Assembly: GCA_029931535.1 (NCBI GenBank)
Contig: JAQPZY010001548.1
Location: 765,001 to 829,000, forward strand
Length of the DNA stretch: 64,000 nucleotides
Source of the DNA: Margaritifera margaritifera
Taxonomy: Eukaryota; Mollusca; Bivalvia; Unionida; Margaritiferidae
Reading direction: 5' to 3'
The position numbers and the translations under genes are program-made. The notes beneath the pieces were generated by a model that was not told the origin of the DNA, did no database searches, and saw only the letters and a program-made list of their open reading frames with translations. This document shows, piece by piece, positions 11,501-59,345 of this stretch (positions within the stretch are counted from its first letter, which is position 1; every line of letters starts with the position of its first letter).

Positions 11501-11690
11501 GCGTATAAGTCGGGTCCAACTGCAAACAACATAGACCCAGATCTGCCGTCGCAAATATGTGTTTGCAAATCAGGGTCTATGCTGTTTGTACTACTGATTA
11601 GTACTAACAAAATGCATAGACCCAGATCTGCCGGCGCATTATGCAACGGCAGATCTGCGTCTGTGCAGTTTGTAGTAGTCGTTTGGACTC
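11501..11690. mobile_element. Palindromic MITE, copy 1
   Basis: First of four copies of a short element made of two adjacent hairpins. Hairpin cores carry CATAGACCCAGATCTGCCG and its near complement around a CGCATTATGCG-type centre, linked by a CTGATTAGTACTAACA-like spacer. An outer GCGTATAAGTC end is visible at 11501. This copy is the most diverged: the first hairpin has AAATATGTGTTTG in place of the usual loop. The right terminus is not clear. No coding capacity. Confidence 0.85.
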
Positions 11691-34485: not shown

Positions 34486-35222
34486 AGACACAGACAGACA
34501 CACACACAGAGTTATACATACACATGTTTCTCCAATGTGCGGTATACAATATCCTTGTTGCAGATTTGTTCGTTCCTGTTTTTTTCGTTACTAACTTTGG
34601 AAGTTTTGTAGGATATGTGGCAAACCGTCTGACTAAATTATATTTCGATAATATCAACCAGATATATAAGGCCGCTGTGCTTATGTCAAAAAGATCATCA
34701 TGTCTATATGCCTTGAATAGAATCGCACAAGGGGTTGTGAAATTAAAACATATTGTTATCTTTATTTTATAAATGATGTAAACTGGGGATGGTTGTGGTG
34801 GTGATTGTGGTCATCCATCACCTTTACTTTTAAAAATTGTGTATAAGCACATTGGTCATCTTTAAAACCATGCATCATCGTCGTCGTCGTTATTGTCATC
34901 GTTGTTGTGGGGATTTAATCGAAACGACACCTTTTTGTATTACTTCACACAGGAAGTGATCTTATTTTTTTTGTTTTTTGTAAAAACTTTATTCCATACT
35001 TTACTTGGAGCCATCAACGATTAAATTAAAACCGGTATGAAAAATACATTGTATGTAAATATAACTCCATTTCTCTTTTTAACTTTCTGTTCATGTTAGT
35101 TGGCTTGCACGCCCTGCGAATAACCCTCCTTATTCATTCGAGCTTGAGACGGCAGCAACCTACAAATTGTTGGCTACATAAACTCACAGTCATAAATTAA
35201 TTTTTTAAAGCCAAATACATGT

Positions 35223-35442
35223 ACCGTCTATACTCGTGTATAAGATAAGTCCAAATGCAAACAACATAGACCCTGATCTGCCGTCGCATAATGCGCCGGC
35301 AGATCAGGGTCTATGTTGATTGTTCTACTGATTAGTCCCTACAAACTGCATAGACCCAGATCTGCCGGCGCATTATGCGACGGCAGATCAGGGTCTATGC
35401 AGTTTGCAGTTGGTATCGAAATTATACGCGAGTATAGACGGT
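35223..35442. mobile_element. Palindromic MITE, copy 4 (most intact)
   Basis: Inverted termini ACCGTCTATACTCGTGTATA (35223) and TATACGCGAGTATAGACGGT (ending 35442) enclose two hairpins. Each is an arm of about 35 bases with CATAGACCCTGATCTGCCG-type sequence around GCGCATTATGCG-type centres, separated by a CTACTGATTAGTCC spacer. Non-coding and about 220 bp. Confidence 0.92.
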
Positions 35443-38400
35443 GCTCAATCAAAGCGTCCAGCCGAACAAATGAATCCTTCTTTCGAACATGTTCTTTTCC
35501 ATACCTCATTGAAAGTATTAAAAAACGGTGAATGCAAAAGGTTAAGGAGTTTTTAGTGCAGTTCCAGCCGAGACATGCGTCAAACCAAAATGGTTATACA
35601 GAAAAAGAAATAAAAATGGAAAAATAAAAATAAAATAAATTAAACTTAATAGAGTAAAAACATTTTCGATGAATGTTGTAAAAAAAAAAAAAAGAAATCT
35701 GTTAGACGCATGCTCCATATAAGTAAAACATTTACGAAAGTAACAACAGCAAAAATTGTCTATAATAATAGTTCATCAACAAGTATTTATAAAAGGAGGC
35801 ACGTGTTGTGTTTTTCTTTTCAACTTAAAGTTCTCATTTTCTCCAGAGCCAATGAAGTGATAACCTTTCAGGAAAAAATCGTGGAACTGTAATATGTAAT
35901 AAAGTGTCAGTGTTTTGTGTGCCTTGATTATATCAGAAATACCATCAGCTTTTTATATTTTTTATTTTTCCCACGAAATCGATTTAATAATTAAATGTCG
36001 AAATCGTACTAAAACCACGTTATAAAGGAAATTTAATCGTGTTATCTTCAAAGTGTAGTGAAAAATTCACTGATAAAGTGTTTCACAGGTGTAAAATTAC
36101 GATCAAACATCGGTTATGACTTTACCAATACTTAGTGATGGTTATCAGCGACCCATCTGATAAAGATATTGAGGATCAGGAATATGTTGTTTTGGTTTGA
36201 ACTTTAAATCATTAAAATTAACTGAATATTTGACTGCCTTTTAATGTAATTACAATTAGTATGGTGTTAGAAGATCTTATTTCAAAATCTTGCCTCCGAT
36301 CTACTATTTTGTTTTGTTGTTTTATTCATCTCTAGGTCTAATGACTATTACAGCTGGAGTAAAATTCTGTCACCGTATTCCCTCCCTATCAAGCACAAAA
36401 CTTAGGCTGGAGATATATATATATATATATAATGAAGTCTGGAAGAAACATATTGTTAATGTGAAATTTTCACACTTTTTTATGCTGTATATCTGGTCAG
36501 TCTATTAAATACCTACGAACTGTGATTAATATGTACGCCTTGCATGTATAAATGTTGAGGCCTACGAGAAATATTAGCTTATTGTCAAACTAAAAACTTA
36601 TTGGATAAGTGTATAAATATATAAAAGTAAATAAGTAAATAAATTTAACAAATATTCGTATGTCTTTGCATGGCCGCAATCTACCATATCAACACACGGT
36701 AGATTGATTTTTGGTTTGTTGTTACTTATAGACTCTCGTTTTATTTTAAAATTATGGTAGTTCTTTAATTTGTCGTATATCTCTATTATCCAGTTCTTAC
36801 TATATCTTGCAGGTCAATATCGTGGGTTTCGATAAACACCACTAGAAGCCGTAAAAAGAGTGGAAAATTGTGTCCAGAAAATGTTGTCTGCCAGTCTGAT
36901 TTGATAAACATGGCAAGCTCGAAACTTAAGATCGGGGATTTCAGATCATAGTGGACAGTGAAAAGCCCCATTTAACTGGACTTCTCGGGAGAGATTTTGA
37001 TGAAATTCTTGTCATTTTGTACGATTCATATTTAATTTGCAGACATAACTTCCAGGAATGAAAGCTATACAGAAAGATGTGGTGACAACCACGTACCGCC
37101 TTCTGTGACTACCTCTTGAATTCTATCAATGAAATAATGACCCACACAGCCCCGAGTAACCACACCCCTACTGTATCAAAATTGATATAATTCACGTTTC
37201 TTTATTTCCTTTCACACACCAGATTAGGTGTGAAAAATACGCTACAAGGGGATTATGGGTATTTCGCTTGTCTTGTCGTATGCAGGACATCGACTGGATT
37301 TAGGATAAAACCCGTACTCTTCCGATTAAACAACAACCTGTAAAATACACATAAATCCTTTCCTGTTTTTATACACTGCAATACAAAAGTCAAGATCAAC
37401 TCTGATACACCACCTTAAGAATCTACAGGTCTACAGTTACCACTATCTACAAAACAAAGAAAGATTGACCGGTCTGGGTTTATTCTTTCATCCCCGAAAG
37501 GGGTTACGTTTGCATGTGCGAGGAAAGAGGAAAGGGAAAGACGATCATACGATGGCTAATACAAACGGGTATTGTTGTAAAAGAAAGAAAGATAAAAAAC
37601 CCAAAAGAACCTGGCCTGGGACAAAGGGGGTTGACCCTAAACAGCGGGGAGACACGATGTAAATTATGCGGAGTATTATACAAATTCATATCGTCCAGGA
37701 TAATAAAATATCGGTGTTGTATTACAAGCAAAAGGAGAGAACAAAAAACATAAAAATCTTGTTCCGTAATAGGTCAAACTTCTTACAAATCTTCTAAATT
37801 CGTGTCTTCATATCATAGCTAAGACTCTCTATCTCTCTCAAACGCGCGCGCTCATACACACACACACACACGCACGCACGCACACACACACACACACACA
37901 CACATTATACAAACGCGCAGTGCACGCAAACACTTACACGCAAAATAGTGTGATGGAAATGCTGTGAATAGTTGTTTTTTCCTTACTTGACGTACACGTG
38001 TAACCTTATTTTCAAAGCAGAATATTTAAATGAAAAGAAAAGCAAGCTTGATGTTTTGAGAAATTGTACCTATGGGTGTTCTTAGAGCTTAAAAATCGTA
38101 CAGAACTATCCTCATGATGTTATGATTGGCGGTTTTCTAATGTATCACGAATCGCTGCAGATGAACGTCTTTGACATCAATGTCGTCGTAATTTCTTGTA
38201 TTGTTATCGCTGTTTTTGTTTTTGTTATCGCCATTATTACTGTGGTGGCGGGGGTGGTAGTGTTTTACTTAGCAGTGATTGTTGAAGTGTTATTATTGTC
38301 ATAAATATGTCTGAGAATTTAAGTCATTTTAAGAAATCGCCTTTGTCAGTTGTATATCTAACTGAAATTGTTCGCTGGTACCCGACATAAATTGGCAAGC

Positions 38401-40744: not shown

Positions 40745-40890
40745 GCCAATGCGATTAACGGCTGCATTTCGCGTTCTCGAAGTTCGAATGCGCTATCTCG
40801 AGAGAACCAATGGGAAATATCCTTAGAATCACATGATCACATATTCAAGACAGCATGAATTAGCATTCTCGAGGTTGCAATAAGCGATTT
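40745..40890 (-). repeat. Fragment of the TCGA/ATCATGTGATT array at left boundary
   Basis: The reverse complement of this segment matches 58340-58445 closely, including GTTCTCTCGAGAT, GCGCATTCGAACTTCGAGAA and ATGTGATCATGTGATTC. It adjoins the outer end of the left inverted arm. Confidence 0.85.
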
Positions 40891-41122
40891 CGAGAGGAGT
40901 ATTAGCCGTACAATATGTTTACTGCATATCCTATATGCATAGAAATAATTATGTAGAGAGGAGAAACTTGTATCTTCATAGAAGTAATGCAGTTCGAAAT
41001 TATATGTACAAAACTAATTGTATCAATCAACATATAATTAGCATGTTCTCCATCGATGCAGTATTGAAGAGAATGGATTTAACAATTCTTTCCCATTCTT
41101 GTATTATACATTGAAAATTATA

Positions 41123-41207
41123 GGTGTTATATACTGTCCCTGGATATACATGTGTTATATACTGTTCCTGGATATACATGTGTTATATACTGTCCCTGAA
41201 TACACAG
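41123..41207. repeat. 28-bp minisatellite in left arm, 3 copies
   Basis: Units contain TATACTGTCCCTGGATATAC followed by ATGTGTTA. The partner locus in the right arm has more copies. Confidence 0.9.
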
Positions 41208-42075
41208 AAACCATTTTCCAATTGTCAAACCTCTGTGTATTGCTCTCGTTTTTAGGGTTTCTTTCTGTCTAAGATAAGGATTGTGCCTTTTTTGTATTTT
41301 TTTTTCTCTTTACTTTTTATCTAATAATATTGTTTATGTGTAGTTATAATTTTAAATTCCCTGTCATTAATAAGGGTATAAATACACCATTATATTAATT
41401 AATATAATTTCATATATGTCCTTTACCAACAAGAAACAGGTCAGATTGGTGTATTTACATTTAGATTTGGTATAATTAAATTGCAAAAGTATACAGATTT
41501 TAAAGAAACCTATGACGTCGTGGAAATTTGCGGACTGGCTTTGGTCATTGCCAAAAAAAAAACAAAAAAAAAAAAAAACAAACAAACAAAAAAACCCCAA
41601 CAATTTCTTATATTGACATTTATTTATTTATTATAAGAACCTTGACCTTCATTTTCAAGTGATATATTGAGCTTCATCGATGACAAAATCTTGCTAGATA
41701 TCTAAAGTAGTAATATACCTTTTCTCCAAAAGGACTAGGCAAAGATTTGGAAGCTGAATATTTTCAATTACTTCATACCTACACGGAATGAAATCATGGC
41801 ATAAAAAAAAGTTTGTGATGCACTTCACTGTTGAGGTCAATACCAAAAACACAATAATAGCCAATGAATCTATTTCAAAATTCAGCATCTTAGAAACTTT
41901 ACTAATTATATCTTATTTAAGTCGAATTTAAACCCCTTTATTGTTTGCCAACTTAGATATTTATATAAAAATATGTAAAGGACTGTCAAGGATGTAAAAT
42001 ATACGTCATACCTCTTTATGATTCGATACATATACATTGTACACCTCTATCGATTGCAACATAACAACTTGGGTT

Positions 42076-42076
<1 letters not shown>

Positions 42077-42144
<68 letters not shown>
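42077..42144. repeat. (CT)n microsatellite in left arm
   Basis: About 34 CT units. The equivalent site in the right arm (about 56350) has only GAGAGAGA. Confidence 0.97.
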
Positions 42145-42145
<1 letters not shown>

Positions 42146-43050
42146 GATGTTTGCTCGTTTGTTAATAATTATTTGCACCCAAAAAGCGTAATTTACCAAA
42201 AATTTTCGAACATTGTACAAAACAAAAATACCTCTTTATGTACATGACATGCGTAAAAATAACTTACCATAAATTTCATATCAGGCGACATTTCCTCTCG
42301 TCGGTAATTATTGTGCATGCTGATGATTTCTTTCTTGTACGGTCCGACATTTGCAGATGTCCATTGGATGAAAATAACTATCATCTGTATGAAGAATTGC
42401 AGGATCCTTTCAGTCATGATGAACAGAATAAATAAATAAATACACACTTACATGAACGTTGGATATATGCAACAATAGCAAGAGTAAGTGTCCAAATGTC
42501 CAGTCGAGGAATCATACGAATGAAGTATTCCGGGACATTTTCCACAATTTCCAGATTTCATATTTTATCTCCTATGTCGTCACTAACTGACAACATATGC
42601 TATTTCAGTCAAGGTAGCATATTTAATTATGAAGGATATTAATTATCCAGAAAATTAGTTAATTAAGTATTACCTACCCCCACCCCACCCCGCCTCCGAA
42701 ATGTTTTATTAATTTGTGATTCGTCATTGTTCATGTTTTTGTCTTTCGACTATTTTCAGGTAAATTAATAAAAATTGTAATCTTTTTCCCAAACCGTTTC
42801 AGGAACAAAATGCCAAATATCATATTTTTAGTAATTTTAATGCAGAGTTTTTATTTAAATAAACCTTATACAATTTTTCTTTAAAAATTTGAACTGCAGA
42901 GTTTTCATTTCTGGAAACTTATTTCCATACCTTTTAGTTTTGTACTCAATAAATTATAAACGAAACAATGTTTCTTTGTTTTTCATTTGCAATCAAGCCG
43001 TTTTACAGTTTTAAGTGCATGAAAATAAAAACAATACAAAATAAAACAAA

Positions 43051-43053
43051 AAA

Positions 43054-43104
<51 letters not shown>

Positions 43105-43107
43105 ATA
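43051..43107. repeat. (AAAT)n microsatellite in left arm
   Basis: About 14 AAAT units. The matching position in the right arm has no such array. Confidence 0.95.
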
Positions 43108-43491
43108 CAAAATCAAAACAAAGATATATTGCGGGACCAACATTGAAAAATTAAAACATTAAAACTTGCTGCTTAACTAAATATTGCTGTCGTTGTTGCT
43201 GTGTGTGTGTGTGTGTGATTGTGTGCATGATGTGCCATTTCAACTACAGGCAAACAAGTTAATCAACTTTCATTGCACATGAAATATTAATGGAATACTG
43301 GTTATTCAATTTATTTGCAATGCAATTTATCATTCAATTTAATTTCAATTCAACTCATTTATCATCAAAAGAGAAATTTGGTTTGTATATTACGAGAACA
43401 TTTGAGTATTACCGTTCATGCTTGAGAAAACAAAAATACGCAAAATAATTTTTAAAAATGAGCAAGGAAAAAAGGATATGAAAAGCATGGA

Positions 43492-43667
43492 GTACATAAG
43501 GTAAATCATAACATGCTTCAGATGTAAAAAAAAGTACATAAGGTAAATCATAACATGCTTCAGGTGTAAAAAAAGTACTTAAGGTAAATCATAACATGCT
43601 TCAGGTGTAAAAAAAAGTACATAAGGTAAATCATAACATGCTTCAGGTGTAAAAAAAGTACATATGT
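43492..43667. repeat. 41-bp minisatellite inside left arm boundary
   Basis: Four and a bit copies of a unit with GTACATAAGGTAAATCATAA then CATGCTTCAGGTG and an A run. It lies just inside the left arm and is not present at the inner end of the right arm. Confidence 0.92.
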
Positions 43668-44243
43668 TACACATTAAATTCTAACATCGTAATATCAATT
43701 GATAAAGCGCGTTTGATTTTTCTCTTGGCATCAAGACTGGGAGTGTGCATGCTACGATATTTTAAAAATTATGTTAAAATATTTTTATTTGGATCACTCC
43801 ATTTTCCTTAAATAAATGGTTACAGACTGCTAAAAGTAGAGGAAAGTGCGATTATAAAAGCTACAGCATAACACAGCTGAGTTTATAACTCATTTAGATA
43901 AGTTTATCTTCATTATCAGCTGCTTTAGAACTTATTGAGACGATTGAAACTCATGCAAGTCTAGAGTCATTTGATCTTCAACTTACTTCACCATTCGCTT
44001 TTCTTAATATTGATTCAGAACGTTGCGGGTTCGAATCGTGTCCAGTCCAGCCTAAGTTGGCAGGAGAGGCGTGGCTCGAGGCACAGCACCTTATTCGAGT
44101 TATATCGGTGTTCATCCATATCATATAAAGGATTATCAAACACAGTCAATATACACATGAAGAAATTACATCGATTTAGTATAATGCTGATAATGTTGAT
44201 TTGAGACAAATGGAGAAGTTCAATGTACGATACCCCCCGCCGT

Positions 44244-44247
<4 letters not shown>

Positions 44248-44293
<46 letters not shown>
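44248..44293. repeat. (CT)n microsatellite, left palindrome arm
   Basis: CT run of about 23 units whose inverted partner is the AG run at 46303-46347. Confidence 0.96.
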
Positions 44294-44297
<4 letters not shown>

Positions 44298-46298
44298 AAA
44301 ATCTATCTTACTTCAATGGCGTAACAGGAACTTTAAAAAAAAATGTCCTGGAGGCGTCTGTTGTAAATGATTATCTTTCAAAGGGTTATCATGGAAGACA
44401 CTCAGTGAAATTTAATGTATATTTAATCCTGGTGTGATTAATATTGCATTGTTAAAATCTTGCAAAGTTTTTAATGAATTAAGTCATCTGTTGGTGTGGA
44501 CAGTACAAACTGTGTACCAAATACATATTTTACTACTGTACAGTGTTGCCTGATGCTAGTTTTTGTATGAATATATTGAAGGGTAAACTAGTCGAAATGT
44601 CTGGCACGTTAATATATGTTTGATTTAAATCTAAGTTTTTTTCTTCTATCTCCCTCCATTTTATGATTTTTGCAGTCTTGTCCAGAGAGAGAAAAAAAAA
44701 AATAATAAAAAAAAATAAAACTATTGTTTACCATAGAAATCGGTGCAATGTTTATAAATGGGAAGTTACTTTTGGGCAGGAAACCATTAACTGCTGCAAA
44801 TGTCGGCACCGGCTACAGAAATTTTAAGAAACAGTGAATTTATTTACTGTATCAAGTTCTGCAGTCTGTAGATAACAGCCCTGTATCCCAAATCGCCTTT
44901 GACGGACAGATAGACCATAAAGTGTCCGCATCACAATTGTTGTATCGCATGCGGGGTAGGGGAAGCTACTAAGCAAGGAAGCTTTGATGAACGTTCATGG
45001 ATTGTTTCCCTTGAAATGCCCTTGCGTGACTTAGAAACCCATGAGCACTGGAGTGAACCTATAGTACCCATTAAATTACGTTTGCGTACACCAATGCTAG
45101 TAACTAAACGATTCAATACTTTTGACAACAAAACCAAAACTGATTACTAGAAAATTACCCTAACATTGTCGAGCACTCGAACTAATTCAGATTTTTTGCA
45201 CGACGGGAGTGAAAAATCTGGTTTGGTTCGTGTTCAAAGTAAAATTGCATTTCAACCAAAACCAACGCATAACTGAAACGATGACTATACCCCATGTATC
45301 TTATAACTTCCATACAAGTCAATCTAAATTTAGAAACGTAGACCATATCGTACAATCTAGCTTGCGACTGATGCGAAATAACCCTTGTCATAAAAACATA
45401 GAGGAAATAAGAAAGGAAAACGCAACACGTGGAAATGCAATTTTGCTTTGAAAACAAACCAAAGCGGTTTTTTCACTCCCGTCGTACAAAACATTCGATT
45501 ACATTTAAGTGTTCGAAACTGAAGGGTAATTTTCTAGTAATCAATTTTATTGTTGTTGTCAAAAGTATTTAATCCTTTTGTTAATAACATTGGTGTATGC
45601 AAACGTAATTTTATGGGTAACAAAAGTTGGCTTCATTGCTCTTGAGTTGGAAGTCACACAAGGGCATTTCAAGGGAAATAATCTATAAACTTTCATCAAA
45701 GCTTTTTTGCTACCCCACATATGATAAAACAATTGTGATGCGACACGTTATGGTCTGCCTGTTCGTCAAAGGATATTTGGGATACTATTATGTACAGTCT
45801 GCAGAGCTTGATACAGTAAATAAATTCACCGTCTCTTAACATTTCTCTAGCCCCATGCAGTCTCGACTCTCGGATACACATTTACAATACCTGGCCAAAA
45901 GTAACTTCCCATTTATATTAATTGCACAGATTTCTATGGTAAGCTATAGTTGTGTTTTGACAAAAATCTTAAAATGAAGAGTGATTTCAACTATTTTACC
46001 CGTCGATAGATTCATAGAAAACTAACATCAGGCAACATTATACAGGAGTAAAATATGTTATGGCACACAGTTTGTGCTGTCCCCACCAAAAGATTACTTA
46101 ATTATTTAAAAAACATAGCAAGATTTTAATAAAGCATTATTAACCACACCAGGATTAAATTTATGTTAAATTTCACTTAGTATCTTCCACGATAAACCTT
46201 TCAAAGACTGTCATTTACAACAGAAGTCTCCAGGAAATATGTTTTTTAAAGTTCCCGTTACGCCATTGAAGTAAGATACATTTTAATGGAAATAACAT

Positions 46299-46302
<4 letters not shown>

Positions 46303-46347
<45 letters not shown>
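46303..46347. repeat. (AG)n microsatellite, right palindrome arm
   Basis: Inverted counterpart of the CT run at 44248-44293. Confidence 0.96.
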
Positions 46348-46350
<3 letters not shown>

Positions 46351-46414
46351 CGGGGTGTGTATCATACAATGAACTTCTCCATTCGTCTCAAATCAACATT
46401 ATCAGCATTATACT

Positions 46415-47250
46415 TGTTACGACTCTATGGTCTAAAAAAATGTAACAGAAAGAAAGTGAAACCAACAACTCAAGTAAAAATCAACAAGCAATATATTTCT
46501 AGATAATTAAAATGAAAAATCAAAAAAGACACTTACAGTAATGTGTATTAAAATCCAAATAATCCAATAAGAATTAGTGTTGTAATCACAAGTCCGAAAT
46601 ATAGAATGTTCCGAATGCACGGGTATCCTTGAATGTTGTGATATGCCAATGGTCTTTAAAGTCCTGATGTACTAGTAGTCTTTAATGTGCTGATGTCAAA
46701 ATTAAGTACTCCAAGATATCTCTGAATAAGTTCACATAAATTCCAAAATCATCAATTAAAAATCCCAAATCCAAAAGTCTATGAGCACTGTTACAATCCA
46801 ATGAATATTTAAAATAATTCCTCTCTCAGAATTTTGAATTACTTTCCACAACTGTTATAGCTCTTTACAAGACTGATAGTAATGTCGAAACTGAAAAACT
46901 GTCCACTAAACATGGTATATGTAAAGATTGGTCACATGACAGAATGTTCTAGAATATGTGTCATCTTAATGGAATTTTACTTGTATGGACATGACTTTTT
47001 ACACATAACTGTAAGGATTTTCCAGTTTTATCTGTAAACAAAATTAACCTTGTCCTCAAATTCAGTAAACATTTTGTTTATCAAAACTACCCTTTAGCTC
47101 AAATCTGAAGTAAACAACCTAATTCAAGGACACTAGTTAAACATGTTTTTTTCTGATAAACAACATTAAGATTTAAGCAAATATTAAAGTCAAGAAACAT
47201 TTATAATTTCCTAAAATATCTATAATATTATATAAACATCATACATAACA
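46415..47250. mobile_element. 836-bp LTR-like insertion (solo-LTR candidate)
   Basis: Inserted in the right palindrome arm only. Ends are TGTTACGACT and CATACATAACA, giving TGTTA...TAACA termini, and both sides carry TACT (46411-46414 and 47251-47254). The left arm shows the uninterrupted target at about 44175-44190. A 4-bp duplication with TG...CA ends suits a solo LTR. Strand unknown: the inverse orientation also begins TGTTA. Confidence 0.72.
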
Positions 47251-47434
47251 TACTAAATCGATGGAATTTCTTCATGTGTTTATTGACTGTGTTTGATAAT
47301 CCTTTATATGATATGGATGAACACCGATGTAACTCGAATAAGGTGCTTTGCCTAGAGACACACTTCTCCAGCCAACTTAGGCTGGTCTGGACAGGATTCG
47401 AACCCGCAACGTACTGAATCAATTTAAAGAAAAA

Positions 47435-48675
47435 CAGTAGTGTCATAATAGAGATTTAAACCGGCCGAACGATTACGGTTTCTGATCCTAAATCCCTTCT
47501 ATATACCCCGTGACTTTTTTCCATTGAGGATTTTTGCACACGCGTGTGTCCCGCGGGCGCCCCCCAAGTGAAGTTCCCATGAGGTGCCTCTGTAGGCAGA
47601 TCAATACACTGGTGCATCTAGCAGACCGATCAATATTTACAAGCAAGTATAGCCGTTGTGCAGGCAGATCAGTATACACAAGCAAGTGTTAGATACATAT
47701 AGCGGCTATGCATAGAAATCTGCGACAGTGAAACGCAGTACCATCTCTTGTATAAAAAATAATTACAAATGAAGAAAATAGCCTATTTGTGCGTGTCTTT
47801 AATTCTCAAAGAGGAACTAAGGATTTCTTGACTTAAGCAAGAAATGGAGTATTCTGGCGTACCTATTATTTTCAAAGCGGAATCGAGCATTTTTAGTCTT
47901 ATATAAGAGACGGTCAAATTGATAACCGTCGATGTGAAAAACGACTCAAAATATTGTTGGTAGAATAGCTAATAAATATTTCAGACATAGGATTACTATT
48001 CCGGGACTATATATGCGATCTTTAATATTTACCATACACGGACCATGTATGTGATAAAACGAGATATACACATAATAGACTATGGAATGGTAAGTTAAAA
48101 TGTCTTTGTTTTTCACATTGAAATGTAGGGGAGGGTTGTGTCACCCATTTTGTCACCGGCGCTGTTAAGTTCAAGTATGAGTTCTTTTTACTTACTTATT
48201 AAGAGTTCTCGGTGGCCTAATCGGTTACTGTGTCGTGCACTTGATCGAGACATTTTAGGTTCGAATCACACCCGCGGAAAATGATATTTGTCTTTATTAA
48301 TTGAGGAAATGTGGAGCTTAGACTTGTTATACATGAAAATGAAAGTCAAATCTGACGATGTAAGGTTGCTGTTTTTTTATATTATGAGACACGCATACTT
48401 TTTTGAGACGTAATCTGTTTTGAAACAACCTCTGAGAGTTCTGGTATGTCGTTTGGCACTCTAGGGGCTCATCTGGAGTTGCAAATTCAAACCGAAGTAA
48501 TTGACACTAACCAAACATATCTCTTCACTATAAGAAATAAGTGTGCAGCGGCTTAAGACCATCAGCGAGCTTATAATTTCAAAGCAATACTGATCGACAA
48601 GCACAAAATTAGCGGAGATTGTTTCCTTTTACGTGAAAATATATTATATTAGAGAATTAGCGCAGTATAATTACA
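47435..48675. other. Element interior without gene
   Basis: Between the palindrome and the first reading frames. It includes a tRNA-like stretch at 48199-48285 and a CpG-rich patch near 47540-47570. No open frame with support. Confidence 0.5.
48199..48285 (+). mobile_element. tRNA-like SINE head
   Basis: A-box-like TGGCCTAATCGG (48212) and B box AGGTTCGAATCAC (about 48257) at tRNA spacing. It lacks the body found in the other SINE copies here, and I could not form a convincing cloverleaf, so it is a SINE head or tRNA relic rather than a functional tRNA. Confidence 0.45.
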
Positions 48676-49106
48676 ATGGCAAAAGCTTCACCGATTGACA
48701 CGTATAGAATTTGGAGTGGATTTATGAGCCTAGCTAATGCGGGAATCACATTGCCGAACAATGGCGTTTTTGTAATGTCACAGAAAAGATTAAATCATTA
48801 TTTCGCCTAAATGCGTCATAGAGATTTGGCAAAGAGGCTCAAACTATGTTGTATGATTTTTCAAATACGTTTCTGGAGCATCTTGATAAATTAATCGAGT
48901 TAGGAATCGTCTTGGAACAAGAACGACATAAACTCGGTCAAGCATACAACAAAAAGCGTGAAAAGTCATTGTATGATATTGTGCAAGAAAAGTTTCAGTC
49001 GCTGACGTTAACAGAAGATAGTGAATGTAGTGAATACAGAAAAGATATTGAAACGACCAGTGACAGTGACAATGACAGTGAATGTTGTAAAGAGCAAGTC
49101 AATTAG
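48676..49106 (+). pseudogene. Unrecognised element ORF(s), acidic C-terminus
   Basis: A 44-codon frame from ATG 48676 (MAKASPIDTYRIW...) ends at TAA 48808. A second open frame of 86 codons starts at ATG 48846 in another phase. The two may be one gene broken by an indel. The second is helical and charged (LEHLDKLIELGIVLEQERHK) and ends in an acidic Ser/Asp stretch. No family recognised. First of the co-oriented series. Confidence 0.4.
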
Positions 49107-49275
49107 AAAGATACTTTTGACAATAATATAACAATGGCATATGCACTCGCCGAATGTGAGAAAAAATACGACGACGCAGAAGCATGACAGCTGGATCTGT
49201 GTGATAAAATTACCAATGATATCTTCAAACATGCAAAAAATAGAAAGCATGGAGTATATAGGTAAGTGAAAAAAG

Positions 49276-49611
49276 ATGTTTGAGATTATTGGATACAAAC
49301 GTAAAAGGAATGGTGATGTAGTAGATTCAAAATGTTTTGATAGATTAGGAATAATTTCTCTCGGTTCTAGCTTGGAGAAAATTTTATCCGAGTTGAAACC
49401 TTACCTATTTGGTCCGGATCGGGATGATGAGCCTGTTTATTTAGCAGATCCTGATGTGAGATTACAAATCACCATCACGGGTGGAAAAAGGTATTATACA
49501 GTTTATAGCTGTAACATCGAGTACTATCCTTTGTATTATGAAGTGTTTACTCGTATACCAGGGTATATAACGCAGATAATAAGAGAAAGGCGTATGTCCT
49601 GGAAAACGTGA
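49276..49611 (+). CDS. Unrecognised 111-residue element protein
   Basis: Intact frame from ATG 49276 to TGA. It begins MFEIIGYKRKRNGDVVDS and includes a DPDVRLQITITGGKRYYTVY stretch that looks beta-rich. No family recognised. It may be a small structural or regulatory protein of the virus-like element. Confidence 0.4.
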   Translation: MFEIIGYKRKRNGDVVDSKCFDRLGIISLGSSLEKILSELKPYLFGPDRDDEPVYLADPDVRLQITITGGKRYYTVYSCNIEYYPLYYEVFTRIPGYITQIIRERRMSWKT

Positions 49612-49729
49612 ACTCTTCGGCAGAACATGTCATGATGGATGTTGTAAATCAAATCACATTTGCTCGCATTACGTGTTGGCCCCAGTACTCGACCATGCCT
49701 TAAGTGTGGAATCGGAGTAAAGTCGCGTA

Positions 49730-50275
49730 ATCAGCTTTGCTGAACGTGTTACAGTCGTGACAACTGCGGAAAAAGTGGAGAAAGTTGCGGAAACCACCAA
49801 AGAGATGACTGAATTAGAACAAAAACCTGGTCCGATCAGGCGTTTGCCAGCACAATTAGCACAAATTCAACATAGGTTATAGGACATACCAGAAGATGTA
49901 GGAGAGGCACTTGCAAATCTTCCACAACAACATCCATCTGGGTACAAATCAAAGCTGGAAACTCCAGTTTAAAAATGTAATGAATCGGCACGGAAGATGA
50001 TCTTTGACAATCCCCTAGAGTTTGCCGTTACAGCACCTACTCCAAAACAATTAAAAGATTATATGTTGGAGACTGAACTACCCGCGGATAGGCCCCCAGG
50101 TTTTCTCAAAGATAACTATCATGCATGGGTATTAAAAAAATGGACTGGACTTAAAAGACTATACAATAATAATCCTATGTGGAACGATTTTTATAAGATT
50201 GTTGAGCTCTCTAGAAATATAGGTATAACAAATATCACAAAAAATGAAAGATTTTTACCAGCACATATATAAAAT
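49730..50275 (+). pseudogene. Unrecognised element protein, broken
   Basis: Two helical, charged segments in different frames: about 49730-49880 (FAERVTVVTTAEKVEKVAET..., then RRLPAQLAQIQHRL followed by TAG) and the open frame 49997-50272 of 91 codons ending FLPAHI. A stop at 49970 and an indel separate them. Function unknown. Confidence 0.35.
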
Positions 50276-50369
50276 TCTTGCAAAGAATCTATGGGGTTGA
50301 GCCTTTAAAAGAGGATGCAAACACAAAACAATAGAGTTCAAATGCGTTTCTGTCGACCAACAATAAGTC

Positions 50370-50760
50370 AATAAACTCGTGGATAGGTTGGAAACACTCG
50401 TGGGGTCGGTTAGCGCGGTCCGCACCAGAAGTCATCAATGAGGCCGCATCGATTTGTCAGCGATTGCTCACCAACGACATCATGGTCCATGGTACGTTTC
50501 GCACATTAACACATGAACTCAGTGAAGGTATCGATGATGTATATAACATCGATGATGAGCACTCAGGCGATTCTTCGAGAAATCAATGCTGCGATGCAGC
50601 GTATCGTTGCAAATACAACCCCGAGCGTTACCTCGACGATCACGATCTCGTCAACAAAACCAGAATTTCATGTGGTTTTCTCTACGCCAATTACTGCTGG
50701 GTAAGGTCGCACACTCGAGATCGCACTAGCGTCGCTGCACGTGTATTACAGTTGACCTAA
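50370..50760 (+). pseudogene. Small element protein, candidate structural
   Basis: The plus-strand frame reads WIGWKHSWGRLARSAPEVIN, then a polar, Asp/Tyr-rich segment. A different overlapping frame (50513-50704) becomes the likely coding one downstream, implying a frameshift near 50550-50600. No firm family. Confidence 0.3.
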
Positions 50761-51409
50761 TATCTGATCGCGGCCGTTTGGGGCCTTCCAGCGAATAACT
50801 CGTTAGCGTTTTCGTCAGACGGTGGCGCCACCTGGAATGAAATTGAATTTCCCACGGGTCTGTACGACATGGAATAGATCAGTTAAGAGATCCGACGGAG
50901 AATTTCGTTGGTGACAGGCAAAGACTAACATTTTCAAACGCGAACACGAGCCGACACTCAGTTCTGCCATCTCGATCGAATCTCCACAGTATGTCGTTGA
51001 CATTGGACGGTTGTCGTTGGGAACAATTCTAGGTTGGCCTGAAGATATTAATGAGATTCCCGCGGACAAATGAATCTTACGCTTGGAATACAATTTTGTG
51101 CCATACATTGTCAGGATCACCACCACAATGCAGATTAATCTGACTTGTGACGTCGTCAGTTGTAAATATGAAAGCGGAGCTTCCATAATCGTAGCCGCAC
51201 AGGGTTTCGTAGTAATCGGCTTCTCCGCAACTGAGGAACCGGGTGATCCGCTATCAATTACTCCCGTGGCGCCCGTTTATCTTTCATGCCCCAATTCCCG
51301 GTTGACACACCTTCGTTTTACCCTTGTGGACCAGAACGGGCACATGTTAGATCTCCGCGGGGAGACTTTGACAATACAACTGTACATTAGAGATCGACCT
51401 GATATTTAA
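50600..51409 (+). pseudogene. Penton/minor-capsid-like protein, frameshifted
   Basis: Fragments in several frames: STKPEFHVVFSTPITAG near 50640-50704, SSDGGATWNEIEFPTGLYDM near 50815-50873, DIGRLSLGTILGWPEDINEI near 51000-51060, and an open C-terminal part to 51409 with LVDQNGHMLDLRGETLTIQL. Beta-rich composition, order and position before the capsid-like gene match proteins that recur in virus-derived elements of invertebrates and are thought to be penton-type. At least one in-frame TGA (51071) and several shifts. The family assignment is by recollection of pattern, not a search. Confidence 0.5.
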
Positions 51410-51413
51410 TATA

Positions 51414-51659
51414 ATGACAGTCGTACGTCGACGTGTGATACCCGTGCGTATTGTCAATGCGAGAAAACCGATTTACATGACATATTACCGAAATAGCTTT
51501 GGTGATGTTATCCAACGATTGTTACAGGAGCCCCATGTTCTCGCGGCCCTGAGCTCGCGCGCTGCACCAATCGCTAAACAAGTTGCAATGCGAGTCGTTG
51601 ATAGCATCAAAAGCGTTGCTGCGGATTGGCTAAAAATATATGGGATTGCAAGCGGTTGA
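51414..51659 (+). CDS. Small basic element protein, 81 residues
   Basis: Intact frame from ATG 51414, four bases after the penton-like frame ends. It is Arg-rich at the N-terminus (TVVRRRVIPVRIVNARK), has an aromatic patch (IYMTYYRNSFGD) and a helical C-terminal half. Basic size and position could suit a core or minor virion protein, but I do not recognise it. Confidence 0.4.
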   Translation: MTVVRRRVIPVRIVNARKPIYMTYYRNSFGDVIQRLLQEPHVLAALSSRAAPIAKQVAMRVVDSIKSVAADWLKIYGIASG

Positions 51660-51682
51660 GTCGATTTGAGATCGACTACGAC

Positions 51683-52806
51683 GAAGCTGCTCAACAACGT
51701 CTAACTGCTCAACAACGTCTAACTGCTCAACAACGTCTAACTGCTCAACAACGTCTAACTGAGCGGATTACGGTTGTGGACTGAGCCTGGACGTAAAAGC
51801 CGTCACACAAAAAGGTATTTGACGAAACCGATGATGTACAAGCAAATACAATAGCGAAATTCAAAGATACACCCGATACTGCATTTGACATAGACGCGCC
51901 TGTGATGATAGATCGAAGCAAAAAAGATTTCAGTATTATTCGTACCAGGCTAAGGAGCCTAACCAAAAAGACCTCATAGACTTACAAGTGCATGACACAC
52001 ATCTTTCTCCCGTGTGAGGCCTTCTTAGAAATTGATGGAAAACTTGTACAAACGACAATGCTAATTACCCCGACGGTGCCCTGGTTGAAATTGTCAACAA
52101 CAGTATCATGGCGTTGTTCAGCAGCGCACGTTATCTCATCGATGGAAAGGAAATCGAAGCATGTTTGAGCAACGTTGACATTGCCACGACGATTATTGGA
52201 CTCGCTAGATACAGCAATGATTATGCAAGATCCGCAGGCCCGTCTATGATGTTTCACACGGATGGATCCGACCATGCAGATCACATCCTAAAAAAAACAT
52301 CGCCGCAAATGCTGATGATGTTGATACAGAAGCCGTACTCATTAACGTCAACCCGAATTACAACCTTGGATTTGTGCAGCGTCGAGGACAACTTCGTGGA
52401 GAACCAGTATCGTTTTCGTGCGCAATTCCTCCCAGTCATATATTTGGGTTTTGCAGAGATGTTCGCAAGGCTATTTTCGGAGCCAAACACACAGTAACAT
52501 TATATCGAAAACCCACAGATAATGATGCAATTTGGCGTCATGGAGGTGCCGATTGGTGCAGTTGTGTTGTCGAAAGTAATATTGTGGATGCCTGTGATAA
52601 TGCCTTCAGTTGCTGCAGAAACACGTTTATTATCATTTATGTGTTCTGGCGGCACATCACCTCTGTCATTTCTCACGCTCACCAGAGACTTGAATGAAGG
52701 CAACGTTCAGCAGTTATCATGGCAAATAACTACCCAACAAGATGTCAGCGCACCAAGACATATATTCATAGCGTTTCAAAATATAGTTCGGGCGCGCGGT
52801 GGATAG
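51683..52806 (+). pseudogene. Major-capsid-like protein, multiply frameshifted
   Basis: Opens with an imperfect hexapeptide repeat (QQRLTA, 18-bp DNA unit, four copies at about 51689-51762). It then passes through TGA and TAA stops near 51782 and a stop near 51977. Conserved-looking blocks follow in changing frames: FLPCEAFLEIDGK (about 52006), VNNSIMALFSSARYLIDGKE (about 52093), IPPSHIFGFCRDVRKAIFGA (about 52425), WMPVIMP (about 52587) and a final block ending FIAFQNIV. Frame changes lie near 52065, 52300 and 52540. A double-jelly-roll capsid is the likely identity from order and motifs, but this needs a profile search. Confidence 0.5.
51689..51762. repeat. 18-bp in-frame repeat, 4 copies
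   Basis: CTCAACAACGTCTAACTG repeated four times, reading as QQRLTA in the capsid-like frame. Confidence 0.9.
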
Positions 52807-52892
52807 GAGGTGAATCAAATTGTATTTGACAAGTTAGGAGTGTCTGAAGTTCTTTGCGTTTAAACGGTTTTTAGGAACCTTCCGAAGAAACG

Positions 52893-53342
52893 TTGCTGGA
52901 CTTTACAAACAATCATGTCGCGCGTCCATTAACCAGTCCTGACTTACTCGCGATGACAAAGTCAGTCAAGCATTTCCGAGGTGTCTTTATGCCGAATGTA
53001 CTTGCGTCAATGATCCCCCGCACGCGGGAAACCGGCATTTTTGACCTGGAGTCGTCAACAAGACCTGGAACTCATTAGGTTTGCATACATGGTAACGCCT
53101 CAACATCTTTTGTATTTTGACTCGTACAGGCTAGCACTGCCACTTGAAGCTGTTGATTATTTAACCCGGGGCGGAAGAGCTTCTGGACGATAAAGTCGTC
53201 TACCACTGTTTTATTCGGCGCTCGTCTGGACGGCCCAATATGTGAGCATGTTGTTGTTGAAGCGCTGCATCCACTCGCGGGAAGCAGCCCGACACTACAA
53301 GCGCTTGTTGAATTTACATTTTCAGTTAGAAAGTACGCTTAA
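52893..53342 (+). pseudogene. Adenain-type cysteine protease (maturation protease), broken
   Basis: The first frame (52893-53078) includes FRGVFMPNVL and GIFDLESSTRPGTH, the signature leading to the catalytic His of adenovirus-protease/Ulp1-like peptidases. The residue after His, normally Trp, is a TAG stop. A shift follows, then LLYFDSYRLALPLEAVDYL (about 53109-53165), matching the segment after the catalytic acid/Asp region, and later ICEHVVVEALHPL (about 53240-53278), where the Cys could be the nucleophile. It sits directly after the capsid-like gene, as expected for a virion maturation enzyme. Inactive as it stands. Confidence 0.6.
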
Positions 53343-53371
53343 TATTATAAGAAACGCCTATTAACAATTAC

Positions 53372-53956
53372 AGACTCTGCAGCGCAGGAACCCGACGCGG
53401 CGCTGATGTGGATCTGAGCAGGTTTGCCACCAAAGTGGATTTGATTCAATTTACCAGACGGTTTGTTGTTGACGTTGATTCGGGAGAGCTTGTGATTTTC
53501 CAAGATCAAATTGGAAAACTTATAACGTCCAACGTGGACATCAATGGTGTTGTTTTGAAGCTCCGTGGCGCCGTCGCAAAGAACCTGGCTGAAATCAATG
53601 AAATCGGCGTGTCAGTTGCCTTTATTAAAGACTACGTCGATACTGTTAATGCTGGTATGAAACAATACGTGGATGTAAAGGTCGCAGAGGTATCCTCACC
53701 ACCACGCGTAGTAACTTTATGGAGCATATGGAGCATAATTAGCGGAATATTATCCAAAGAAACAGAGGAAAAAACTGATGTCTTAACCTTAGCAAATGGA
53801 CGACTTGTTTTCCAGTCTCTTAAAAATAGATTTGATAGACCTAAACGTCACATCTTAAAAGTGCACGAGTCCGAATCATACTTGTTTATCATAACCAGAA
53901 ATAAAGATGGGTGGGATCAAATGGCGATGTTGATAAACGATCAGCGGCATCTTTGA
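53372..53956 (+). CDS. Possible fibre or attachment-like element protein
   Basis: A long open frame (at least 182 codons from about 53408) extends upstream without an ATG, so the true N-terminus is lost or lies in another frame. Residues have regular hydrophobic spacing with coiled-coil-like stretches (NGVVLKLRGAVAKNLAEINE) followed by a more globular C-terminal part. The longest intact frame of the element. Family not recognised. The fibre idea is inference from position and repeat-like spacing. Confidence 0.4.
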   Translation, partial: RLCSAGTRRGADVDLSRFATKVDLIQFTRRFVVDVDSGELVIFQDQIGKLITSNVDINGVVLKLRGAVAKNLAEINEIGVSVAFIKDYVDTVNAGMKQYVDVKVAEVSSPPRVVTLWSIWSIISGILSKETEEKTDVLTLANGRLVFQSLKNRFDRPKRHILKVHESESYLFIITRNKDGWDQMAMLINDQRHL

Positions 53957-54138
53957 AAGATACTATATATATTACGTATCGATAAAACGGGCTTTGTTAT
54001 TATAGAATATTTCCACATATACAGTATCAGCATCATTAGTTGCAAGAGATGAAATTCAATTAGAAGGAATCAACATCTATCCGGAAGGGTACTTAACTGT
54101 CTTTGGCGTTTGTGTTTAAGATTTATTACTACATATAC

Positions 54139-54621
54139 ATGATGGATTCTGAACGGGATGACGATGTTGCGGAATTTATCGATGGGGTGTTGGATCAGAT
54201 AGATAGCAATTTTGTTCCACTTGTCGACGAATATCTGCTTTAGAGTGGTGTTGCCAGGCCCTCGTATACGCTTACATATAATCTAAGTGAGGCCAAGATA
54301 GAAATCGACTGTTGGGACCACCCTGGTGTGCCACTACCAACTCGAGGCCAGCTTGGAGCCATATCATTAGTATGCGAAAACGCCCGGCAAAAAGATACAT
54401 TAACATGGGGCATGAAATCAGCCAAAGACTGTTTCTACAACAGTGAAGTGAAATTCACCGCCGAGTCCACTCCGGTTACATTTTCCATAAATTATGTTAA
54501 ACCAACATTGACTCAACTAAGAACAGAAAGATCTCGACTGTTATTCAACAAGGACGCACTTGTTCGCGTAACAGTTCTTGGAGGAAAACGATCGTTAGAG
54601 GTACAAAAAGCAAAGGCGTAA
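54139..54621 (+). pseudogene. Unrecognised element protein with one in-frame stop
   Basis: A single frame runs from ATG 54139 (acidic DSERDDDVAEFIDGVLDQID) to TAA at about 54619, broken only by TAG at 54241. The remainder is mixed beta-type sequence (KIEIDCWDHPGVPLPTRGQL). A single nonsense change suggests recent loss. Function unknown. Confidence 0.4.
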
Positions 54622-54699
54622 TCGGTGTGTTTCTAAATGAACGTGGCACAAAACCCCAGGTACGCACGATCACCGGAGACTTAAATATTCCTCCAGAAG

Positions 54700-55025
54700 A
54701 TATTTTCTATGATTGTGTGTGTGGTTGTATATGCTATTTACGGAATCACCGCCGCGATTACCATTGGCATTGATGATGCTGGAATTGTGACTACGGCAAC
54801 TATCGTAGGCACACCAGAGTGAATTCTTGTTGGAGCCATATCAATAGTAACCGGTGCGACTGGCGGCGCTGGCAAAATAATTTCGGTAGGGCTGCATTTG
54901 CGAATACGTATTTATTCAGAACTTCTTGCGGCGGCACGAAGTAGTCTCAGCACAATTAATAAGCTGTATTCGACGGCTATTGAGGATAAAACGATTAGCA
55001 TGGCTGGTGCTAGTGGAAATGGATA
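54700..55025 (+). pseudogene. Gly/Ala-rich membrane protein of the element
   Basis: The frame reads VVYAIYGITAAITIGIDDAG, then (after a TGA at 54820) ILVGAISIVTGATGGAGKII, then a helical LHLRIRIYSELLAAARSSLS segment. Two small-residue-rich hydrophobic stretches followed by an amphipathic helix resemble small membrane proteins found in similar capsid-bearing elements. One nonsense mutation. Confidence 0.45.
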
Positions 55026-55134
55026 ACCACCGACGTCTCCGAGCACAGATACAGAACCGGAACCATGGCGTTAGCGACCCAAAACAGGTAGCTGATTTAC
55101 AGGCAGTGCAAATCGAGTCAATGTTTATCATGTT

Positions 55135-57494
55135 TATTTTTTTGCATATTTCTTTTTCTCAAGCATGAACTGTAATACTCAAATGTTCTCGTAATATAAA
55201 ACAAAAATTCTCTTTTTGAAGATATATGAGTTGAATTGAAATGAAATTGAATGATAAATTGAATTGCAATTAAATTGAATAACCAGTATTCCATTAATAT
55301 TTTATGTGTAATCAATGTAAGTTGATTAACCTATTTACATGTAGCTGAAATGGCACATCATGCACACACACACACAAACACACACACACATACACACACA
55401 CAGAGCAACAACGATAGCGATAATAAGTTAAGCAGCAAACTTTAATGTTTTAATATTTGAATGTAAGTCCCGCAATATACTTAAAACTGTGTAAAACGGC
55501 TTGATTGCAAACGAAAAACAAGGAAACATTGTTTCCTTTATAATGTATTGAGTATAAAACTAAAAGGTATGGAAATATGTTTCCAGAAATTGTTTATAAG
55601 GTTGATTTAAATAAAGACTCTGCACTAAAATTACTTTAAAAAAATACGAAATTTAGCAATTTGTTCACGAAATGGGTTGAGAAAAAGAATTTTGTATTCA
55701 TTTACCTGAAAACAGTCGAAAGACAAAAACGTAAACAATGACAAGTCACAAATTTAAAAAAAAACCAAAAAACAAGCGTCTCTGTTTCGGGGGGTAGGTA
55801 ATGACTTGCATACTTAATGAGCTAATCTTCTGGATAATTAATATCCTTCATAATTAAATATGCTACCTTGACTGAAATAGCATATGTTGTCAGCTAGTGA
55901 CGACATAGGAGATAAAATATCCACTCCGGAAATTGTGGAAAATGTCTCGGAATACTTCATTCGTATGATTCCTCGACTGGACATTTGGATACTTACTCTT
56001 GCTATTGTTGCATATATCCAACGTTCATGTAAGTGTGTATTTATTTATTTATTCTGTTCATCATGACAGAAAGGATCCTGCAATTCTTCATACAGATGAT
56101 AATTATTTTCATCCAGGGGACATCTGCAAATGTCGGACCGTACAAGAAAGTAATCATCAGCATGCACAATAATTACCGGAGAGCGGAAATGTCGTCTGAT
56201 ATGAAATTTATGGTAAGCTATTTTTTTATGAGTGCCATGTACATAAAGAGGTATTTTTGTTTTGTAAAATGTTCGAGTTTTTGATAAACTTAGCAATCTG
56301 CGACTTTTTGGGTACGAACTTACTTTTAACAGACGAGCAAACATCATTTGCGAGAGAGATATCAACCAAAGTTATTATGTTGCAATCGATAGAAGTGTAC
56401 AATGTATATGTATCGAATCATACAGAGGTATCACGTATATTTTACACCCTTGGCATTCCTTTACATCTTTTTATATAAATATCTAAGTTGGCAAACAATA
56501 AAGGGGTTCTAATTCGATTTAAATAAGATATAATTAATAAAGTTTCTAAGATGTTGAATTTTGAAATAGATTCATAAGCTATTATTGTATTTTTGATATT
56601 GACCTCAATAGTGAAGTGCATCATAAACTTTTTTTATGACATGATTTCAGTATAACAAATAAATACATGTCTATATAAGAATTTTTTTTGTAATGAAGAA
56701 ATTACGTACTAGGTTCGTTTCAAATCTGTATATTTTTGCAATTTAACTATACCAAATCTAAATGTAAATATATCAATCTGGCCTGTTTCTTGTTGGTAAA
56801 GGACATATATGAAATAATATTAATTAATATAATGGTGTAATTAGACCCTTATTAATGAAATGAAATTTTAAATGAAGACTACACATAAACAATATCATTA
56901 GATGAAAAATAAAGAAAAAAGAAAATACACAAAAAAAAGACATAATCCTTATCTTAGATGGTTTCCTTCAAAATGAAAGCTGTCAAACTCATTCATATTT
57001 TTCTCTCGTGTTTCTGTGGAAAGAGACCCTAAAATGACAAAATAACCAGAGGCTTGACAATTGGAAAATGGTTTCTTTGTATTCAGGGACAGTATATAAC
57101 ACATGTATATCCAGGGAGAGTATATTTACACGTGTATATTCAGGGACAGTATATAACACATGTATATTCAGGGAGAGTATATAACACATGTATATTCAGG
57201 GACAGTATATAACACATGTATATCCAGGTACAGTATATAACACATGTATATCCAGGGACAGTATATAACACCTATAATTTTCAATGTATAATACAAGAAT
57301 GGGAAAGAATTGTTAAACCCATTCTTTTCAATACTGCACTGATGGAGAACATGCTAATTCTATGTTGATTGATACAATTAGTTTTGTACATATAATTTCG
57401 AATCTGCGTTTCTTCTATGAAGATACAAATTTCTCCTCTCTGCATATTATTTTTTTGCATATAGAATATGCAATAAACATATTGTGCGGCTAAT
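55135..57494 (-). repeat. Right inverted arm, about 2.4 kb
   Basis: Inverted partner of 40901-43448. It begins right after the last reading frame. A CA-rich microsatellite (about 55368-55402) corresponds to the GT run at 43200-43217. The 28-bp minisatellite here has more copies (57086-57277). The outer end ATTGTGCGGCTAAT aligns with ATTAGCCGTACAAT at 40901. Confidence 0.92.
57086..57277. repeat. 28-bp minisatellite in right arm, about 7 copies
   Basis: Units contain AGGGACAGTATATAACACAT followed by GTATATCC or GTATATTC. The left arm has about 3 copies at the matching place. Confidence 0.93.
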
Positions 57495-57839
57495 TTTCGA
57501 GACGGCTTACTTTCGACAGTAAAACATCGTAGGAATCGAACGACATATTTTCGAGGTCGGCTTAATTTCGAAGTTTTAGGGTATCAGAGCTGACAAGGTT
57601 TGTTCTTGTTCATCTATTCGCATGCAAGCGTTTTGCGGGACCATTTATATCCCAAAAGTTGCTCTTATAGCAGGAGGCAAACACTGAAAGAGTGAAACAA
57701 ATCGCATTTGGTACTTTCCGTTTCATGTATAGTTGTATGGTAATATTCTTTTGTTACTAAATTTAGTAGAAGTGGGGGACTAAGTTGCGCTAGCGCTGCC
57801 GAATCGAAAGTCTACGGTAAGGTATTGAGGCCATAATGA

Positions 57840-59345
57840 AAAACGCTTACTGATCTCGTGACTGGAGTACTCGAACTCGAGATAGCCAATCAGAAGATAC
57901 TTTCAATCACATGATCTCTGCAACACACGTAATCGAGCTCACCATTACGCGCAATCCAGTTCTCCACTTCTCGAAATCTAAACTTCCACTTCGCATAATG
58001 ATAATCAAACTAACTACCATAACGTGTAGAACATTTCGCATTCGCGAAGCTCGAATGCGCGTATTCGAAGCTCGAACATGCGACCTCGAGAGAGTCAATT
58101 GTAATAATTGTTTGAATCACATCGTAACTTATTCGAGAATTAGTGATATGAAGACAGCAAATCGGAAAGTTGGTTTTAGTCACACGATCTCTCTCTAGAT
58201 CTCTTATTTGAGACTCGAAATCGCGCATTCAGGATAACGTAGATCGCTCTTTGAATACGCGATCAGGAGAGAACTCATGTGATAAAAATACTTCTCTGAC
58301 TGGCACTCTCGAAATCAATTATTAAAGCTTTAAGAACGTTCATTCATGCTGTCTTTAATATGTGATCATGTGATTCAAAGGATATTTCCAATTGGTTCTC
58401 TCGAGATCGCGCATTCGAACTTCGAGAACGCGAAATGTGTTCACATTATGGACCTGTTGGCTTGCTAGGTACTTCGATTATGAGAAGGGGAAGTTTTTCT
58501 ATTTCGGGTAATGGAGAACTCGAATGCACGTCATGGAGAGCTCGACTTCGCGCATCACAGAGATCATGTGATTGAAAAGTGTCTTCTGACTGGCTCTCTC
58601 GAGTTCGCGTAATCGAGCCTCGAGATCGTTAAGCGTTTCACACGTTATAGCCCAGATGACTTGTCACAAATATTAATCTCTATCAAAGCTCGAATGCGCA
58701 TATTCGAAGCTTAAAATACGCGATCTTGAGAAAACCGATTGGAAAAATCGTTTGAATTACATGATCCCGCGTTTGATGTAACACGAATGCGCACTCTCGA
58801 AGTTCGAACAGGTGATCTCAATCAAAGAAATATTTTTCATTACATGCTTTCTCTCCTGATTGCATATTCGAAGAGCGATTCACGCTTTAGGGGCTCGAAT
58901 ACGCGATCTCAAGTTTCGCATACGCGATCTAGAGAGATAGATCATGTGATTAAAGTCAACTTTCCAGTTTGCTGTCTCAAGACTGCATATTCGACCCTCC
59001 TGAACACGATTGCCTGTTGTCTCTAATAAGTGATCGTGTGATTCAAACGACTTTTCCAAATGGCTCTTTCGAGAACTCATATTTGAAATTCGAATACGTG
59101 TATTCAGTCTTCGAGAACGCGGAATGTTTTCACGCTATGACAATGCTGGTCTGCCAGGTGTACCGATTACGAGAAGTGGAGAGCTCGATTGTACATACTG
59201 CAGAACATGATTACGTAAATTACGGAGATTATGTGATTGAAAAGTATTTTCTGATTGGCTTCCTCGAATACTTGTAACCGAACCTCGACATCGCGAAGCG
59301 TTTCCACGTTATGGCCCAAAATGTCTTGTCATAAACATCACCTGT
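57840..59345. repeat. Diverged TCGA-rich repeat array beside right arm
   Basis: Built of direct and inverted copies of motifs such as ATCATGTGATT, CTCTCGAGATCGCG, ATTCGAAGCTCGAA and GCGTTTCACACGTTAT. A direct pair of about 230 bp lies at 58430-58660 and 59115-59345. 57850-58200 contains inverted versions. It is more CpG-rich than its surroundings. One fragment also flanks the left arm (40745-40890). Open frames within it are repeat artefacts. Confidence 0.8.

Follow-up and report, generated by a model that had tools for sequence, protein, structure and literature searches.

What relation does a run of decayed, virus-like genes bear to the long inverted arms that enclose it? The question is raised by a stretch of 64,000 nucleotides from the bivalve Margaritifera margaritifera (contig JAQPZY010001548.1, positions 765,001 to 829,000; hereafter the window, to whose numbering all bare positions refer), in which a first-pass annotation had proposed a single 16.6-kb element with the arms as its bounds and only structural genes between them. 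We compared the window, which lies inside the contig designated C1119, with the 2.45-Gb assembly of 1696 contigs. A Maverick/Polinton-like element, whose remnant occupies 47436-55135 on the plus strand, very probably inserted into an older palindrome unique to this locus and then decayed; the arms and the viral remnant do not constitute one element.

The limits of the virus are set by its relatives. A search of the genome with 47250-48700 (40 of 886 candidates scored) recovered 57 pieces, one being the query itself; none of the other 56 starts to the left of 47425, and 17 of the 39 main matches begin at 47425-47442. The query across the right border (54700-56000; 40 of 1987 candidates scored) yielded 43 matches. 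Apart from the query itself, two pieces of the left arm and two short matches to simple repeats, these were 38 other loci, of which 37 end at 55116-55140 and one at 55102, with none extending beyond. Because the matches at other loci stop at these borders, we take the viral unit to run from 47436 to about 55135. Viral homology is thus confined to the interval from 47436 to ~55126-55140, and the terminal repeats of the family are of ~200 bp and mostly begin with AGTAGT, which deprives the arms of the role of terminal repeats.

The left terminal repeat of the window copy (47436-47640, plus strand), which starts AGTAGTGT, matches both the left and right ends of a copy on C972 and the left ends of those on C297, C1295, C712, C1052 and C453. 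In the C972 copy the viral end is an inverted repeat of ~200 bp, with the right repeat beginning just where the last gene stops; inverted repeats are likewise present in the C589 copy. Across seven loci, AGTAGT is exact at 7 of 11 ends and the other four differ from it by one or two bases, a count that leaves out both ends of the C310 copy, which have no usable tip. At the level of the family, then, the terminal inverted repeats and end motif of Mavericks/Polintons are present, while the window copy retains only its left repeat, the right one being missing. Seven loci carry a left-end match together with a last-gene match on one strand, 8.3-20.5 kb apart (0.012 such loci expected), and the four two-ended copies are 8.5, 9.9, 12.3 and 12.9 kb long. 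A tip-like sequence at 57495-57582, related to tandem units at C423, C529 and C614, was considered as a viral end near 57582 and rejected, the true end being placed at 47436. On C521 two last-gene matches (167164-167588 and 174349-174773) lie on one strand 7.2 kb apart, possibly through local duplication of a copy.

Within these borders, degraded plus-strand frames fill ~48.7-55.1 kb, and the co-oriented run of broken frames noted in the first-pass annotation is borne out; a capsid gene lies within it. For comparison we used stretches from relatives, including L039, upstream of a capsid copy on C1478, and L040-L042, around a capsid copy on C358; conservation of the virion-module genes was assessed by comparing window pieces at 37 loci. 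One or more degraded genes at 48687-49749, which in relatives lie upstream of the polymerase, match L039, L042 and L047, and another at 49721-50269, which in relatives follows an ATPase-like frame, was recovered by tblastn to L039 and L040. A degraded virion-module gene at 50335-51406 (50335-50757 matched at 21 of the 37 loci, 51074-51406 at 26), for which no Pfam family exceeded its cut-off, precedes a short conserved frame (51372-51656, matched at 24 loci), and a perfect 18-bp tandem repeat of 4.2 copies lies within a viral frame at 51687-51761. The major capsid protein gene, broken across several frames at 51797-53339 (ends approximate), was recognized from homologues and PF21738; it is followed by a degraded gene at 53351-54240, the 53351-53953 piece of which is matched at 5 of the 37 loci, and by the last degraded gene or genes of the unit at 54244-55135, matched from 54715 to ~55126 at the 38 other loci of the right-border search.

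The identity of the capsid gene carries the assignment of this module. In protein searches the 153-residue piece encoded by 52036-52494 found 11 homologues at E-values up to 0.1 (best 2e-23), including a protein of the freshwater mussel Sinanodonta woodiana annotated as hypothetical (ACJMK2_006318; 68% identity over 48% of the piece). One of the seven homologues scanned, P0010, passes the Pfam cut-off for DJR-like_dom (PF21738, E 3.1e-7), whereas the window piece 52221-52694 itself remains below it (E 0.0024). By way of P0010, the broken gene would encode a double-jelly-roll capsid of the Maverick/Polinton type, which supports the earlier proposal that the interior represents a Maverick/Polinton- or adintovirus-like virion module. 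The profile searches recommended for the interior succeeded through this homologue but not through the window pieces: among 20 separate pieces no Pfam family exceeded its cut-off, DJR-like_dom being the sub-threshold match of one, and 10 pieces run against PHROGs gave weak matches only (E 0.02 or more). The 201-residue frame at 53351-53953 had no homologue at E 0.1 among 151 candidates, the capsid alignment had a single match to solved structures (E 1.3), and three IMG/VR scans found no relatives. In the raw frames of 40901-57582, with stops kept, a motif scan found a single P-loop-like string, which crosses a stop, and no motif of a polymerase; no adenovirus-like protease was found among the Pfam-scanned pieces of the window, L039 and L040, which are short.

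The genes absent from the window are to be sought in its relatives. Judged by sequence matches, the family is large in this genome: the capsid piece has at least 157 matches, many with stops, and a polymerase piece from L039 has at least 150, these searches having scored 150 of 3856 first-look candidates (150 matches listed) and 150 of 6073, respectively. Among the matches listed, 15 capsid-polymerase pairs lie within 30 kb of each other, all on one strand, where 0.55 would be expected; in 13 of them, the source copy included, the polymerase lies 2.0-8.1 kb upstream of the capsid gene, and the other two pairs stand at -11.9 and 20.2 kb. Among the matches listed, the rest of the capsid copies lack a polymerase in the vicinity, as expected when 150 matches of each kind are compared. 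With a B-family polymerase upstream of the capsid gene in relatives, the window element is a decayed copy of a family with a larger coding repertoire, rather than a member of a lineage that carries structural genes alone, as had been suggested.

The point at which the window copy lost this part can be located. Near 49720-49762 the counterpart of its sequence shifts abruptly from C358:972378 to ~C358:978085, so that ~5.7 kb would be missing. In the relative this interval holds, by its similarities, polymerase and phospholipase-like genes, and probably the ATPase as well. Two polymerase models are matched by L040 pieces, PF03175 at E 1.2e-4 and PF00136 at E 0.0086, neither reaching its cut-off, whereas a minus-strand match of L040 to the phospholipase-A2-like model PF08398 (E 2e-7) exceeds its own; L039:6634-7284 matches Pox_A32, as a candidate packaging ATPase, below cut-off (E 0.008). 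Pfam gave no match for the L039 pieces that resemble a polymerase, nor for the ATPase-like piece of L040. Apart from this family, the genome contains polymerases above the PF03175 cut-off (75 of 5572 candidates scored; e.g. C294:10467914 and C1424:2378081) with many open frames of up to 1470 residues, and hence seems to harbour a younger element that bears a polymerase.

Turning to the arms, each is an inverted copy of the other almost from end to end, as had been described: the self-BLASTN pieces that align 40901-43449 to 57494-55136 are 84-94% identical (best E 0), and global alignment gives 90.1% identity over 2129 sites (Kimura two-parameter distance 0.107) with many separate indels. Self-alignment, proposed as a means of fixing their ends, upheld the arms but not those ends, as pairing continues outside them (40765-40896 with 58306-58437) and tip-like sequence runs on to ~57582. 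A second set of inverted pairs occupies 43999-47433. With the virus removed and its flanks joined, the locus becomes a nearly continuous palindrome of ~9 kb, with one centre near 45342 and halves of 4442 and 4452 bp, made up of an outer left part (40901-43453), an inner part (43999-47435) and an outer right part (55136-57494), with identity falling from ~90% in the outer part to 78% near the centre. Two stretches remain unpaired after joining: 46415-47249, a repeat inserted in the right half, whose first 720 bp are also present at another locus (part of L018 shares 82% identity with 46415-47136), and 43454-43998, a partnerless segment exactly opposite the viral insertion. Two further observations concern the surroundings of the arms. 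Beyond the right arm, 57829-59316 is a self-inverted region of repeated short motifs, a 132-bp relative of which (40765-40896) directly abuts the left arm; and both arms contain tandem copies of a 28-bp unit, 3 in the left (41124-41206) and 6.8 in the right (57080-57271), with related units elsewhere in the genome. Farther to the left in the window, a repeat of ~170-220 bp is present four times (11501-11676, 19126-19339, 28040-28262 and 35222-35445), its matches being in both orientations.

The palindrome differs from the virus in its distribution. The genome matches of the arm segment 42255-42670 are the two arms themselves, 44000-45260 matches only its own partners and one 73-bp stretch, and 43440-44010 matches only itself. 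By these searches 43450-47435 is non-viral, consisting of the inner palindrome, the 545-bp segment with no second genome match and the repeat shared with another locus. Relatives of the outermost 100-220 bp of the arm are dispersed through the genome (41000-41600 gave 79 matches, many to short tandem units). The loci examined beside four such arm-tip relatives, comprising ~11 kb inward of the related tip at C423 (L005, L043) and the 3.1-kb loci L006-L008, showed no viral gene. As judged from the tested segments, none of which is matched in full elsewhere in the genome, the large arms are probably no part of the virus, and the palindrome would be an otherwise single-locus feature. The divergence of the arms dates the palindrome and not the virus. 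The evidence favours the outcome that the first-pass annotation had named as contrary to its proposal, an inverted duplication unrelated to the interior; we regard the palindrome as either a local inverted duplication or a foldback element, without choosing between them. That its mirrored left half shows no viral sequence suggests that it is older than the virus, and the partnerless state of 43454-43998 is expected if a deletion of the right viral end also took the partner of this segment.

Could the arms nevertheless be very long terminal repeats of a 16.6-kb Maverick- or adintovirus-like element with structural genes only, into which the inner palindrome was inserted later? In favour of this, nothing separates the last viral gene from the start of the right arm, the two inverted copies are similarly old throughout, and terminal repeats may diverge faster than genes. 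Yet a complete-looking terminal repeat of the family starts within the supposed element, at 47436; no relative of the tested arm segment occurs in a genome where the virus is highly repeated; the arms pair on into the inner palindrome once the virus is removed; and at ~2.4-2.5 kb they exceed the 46-1,447 bp recorded in PMC8097293 for the terminal repeats of intact vertebrate Mavericks. We accordingly consider this very improbable. Somewhat less so, though still unlikely, is that an outer inverted repeat and the inner palindrome (43999-47433) arose as two independent features, the virus lying beside the inner one by chance. This would fit the offsets of the inner pairs, which differ from those of the outer pairs by up to several hundred bases, and the contrast between ~90% identity outside and 78% near the centre; but the offsets are accounted for by 43454-43998 and 46415-47249, the outer and inner parts are both single-locus, and it would be a coincidence that the inner feature stops no more than 3 bases from the end of the virus. 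Folded reads are a known source of artefactual palindromes in long-read assemblies. Such a read would leave near-identical halves, whereas these are ~10% divergent, contain numerous separate indels and differ in their later insertions, so that an assembly artefact is scarcely credible here.

Several observations weigh against insertion of a Maverick/Polinton-like virus into a standing palindrome. The viral border and the inner pair of the palindrome coincide at 47433-47436, which a deletion accounts for only if it started at the virus. The AGTAGT tip is not seen at the ends of C310 and C589, and C358 has no terminal inverted repeats in the stretches fetched. No clean 6-bp target duplication was seen in the four two-ended copies: the flanks share 5 bp on both sides in C972 and a 7-bp match four bases off in C297, and nothing in C712 and C453. 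The polymerase and ATPase matches to Pfam in relatives are below cut-off, and an integrase was not confirmed, a minus-strand piece of L039 having one unnamed homologue and no Pfam or PDB match. By its motif this piece may represent a retroviral-like integrase.

The insertion account would nonetheless unite the observations as follows. A virus of the large genomic family would have inserted at 47435/47436, in the right half of an existing ~9 kb palindrome. Judging by its relatives, the element probably measured some 13-14 kb before the deletions and carried ~200-bp terminal repeats, a B-family polymerase, an ATPase and virion genes. It may have moved as Mavericks are thought to, being copied by the polymerase that it encodes and integrating as linear DNA, perhaps once packaged. 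One deletion would then have removed ~5.7 kb including the polymerase region, and another the right terminal repeat together with ~545 bp of the palindrome next to it, while stops and frameshifts broke the remaining genes.

The element belongs to the known Maverick/Polinton kind. As PMC8097293 and PMC4028283 describe that kind, the likeness lies in the (AGT)2 ends, the commonest end motif of vertebrate Mavericks (PMC8097293), in terminal repeats of a few hundred bases, and in the union of a B-family polymerase and a double-jelly-roll-type capsid in one unit. The two-ended copies, at 8.5-12.9 kb, lie at or below the 12.7-24.6 kb of vertebrate Mavericks, and compared with a Maverick/Polinton length of ~15-20 kb the distance from left end to last gene here reaches 20.5 kb; the polymerase, ATPase-like and capsid frames are here all on one strand, and neither clean 6-bp target duplications nor an integrase were demonstrated. 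The adintoviruses, as described in PMC11071296, are animal-associated, combine a polymerase with adenovirus-like virion genes and are defined by hallmarks including capsid (Hexon) and polymerase, a likeness by description. A literature search aimed at molluscs, partial in coverage and with its titles not gone through fully, gave no title on such a Maverick-like family. It is conceivable, albeit doubtful, that we are dealing with an undescribed mollusc lineage of Maverick/adintovirus-like viruses, with a compact one-strand polymerase/ATPase-like/capsid layout and an invasion on a very large scale.

Thus, a long palindrome and a virus can together mimic one giant-armed element and yet have apparently separate histories, and an attractive reading of this locus is thereby corrected. 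The borders and the linkage of genes across relatives offer a basis on which to annotate, in this genome, a heavily amplified Maverick-like family whose size is a more interesting point than the single copy from which it was recognized.

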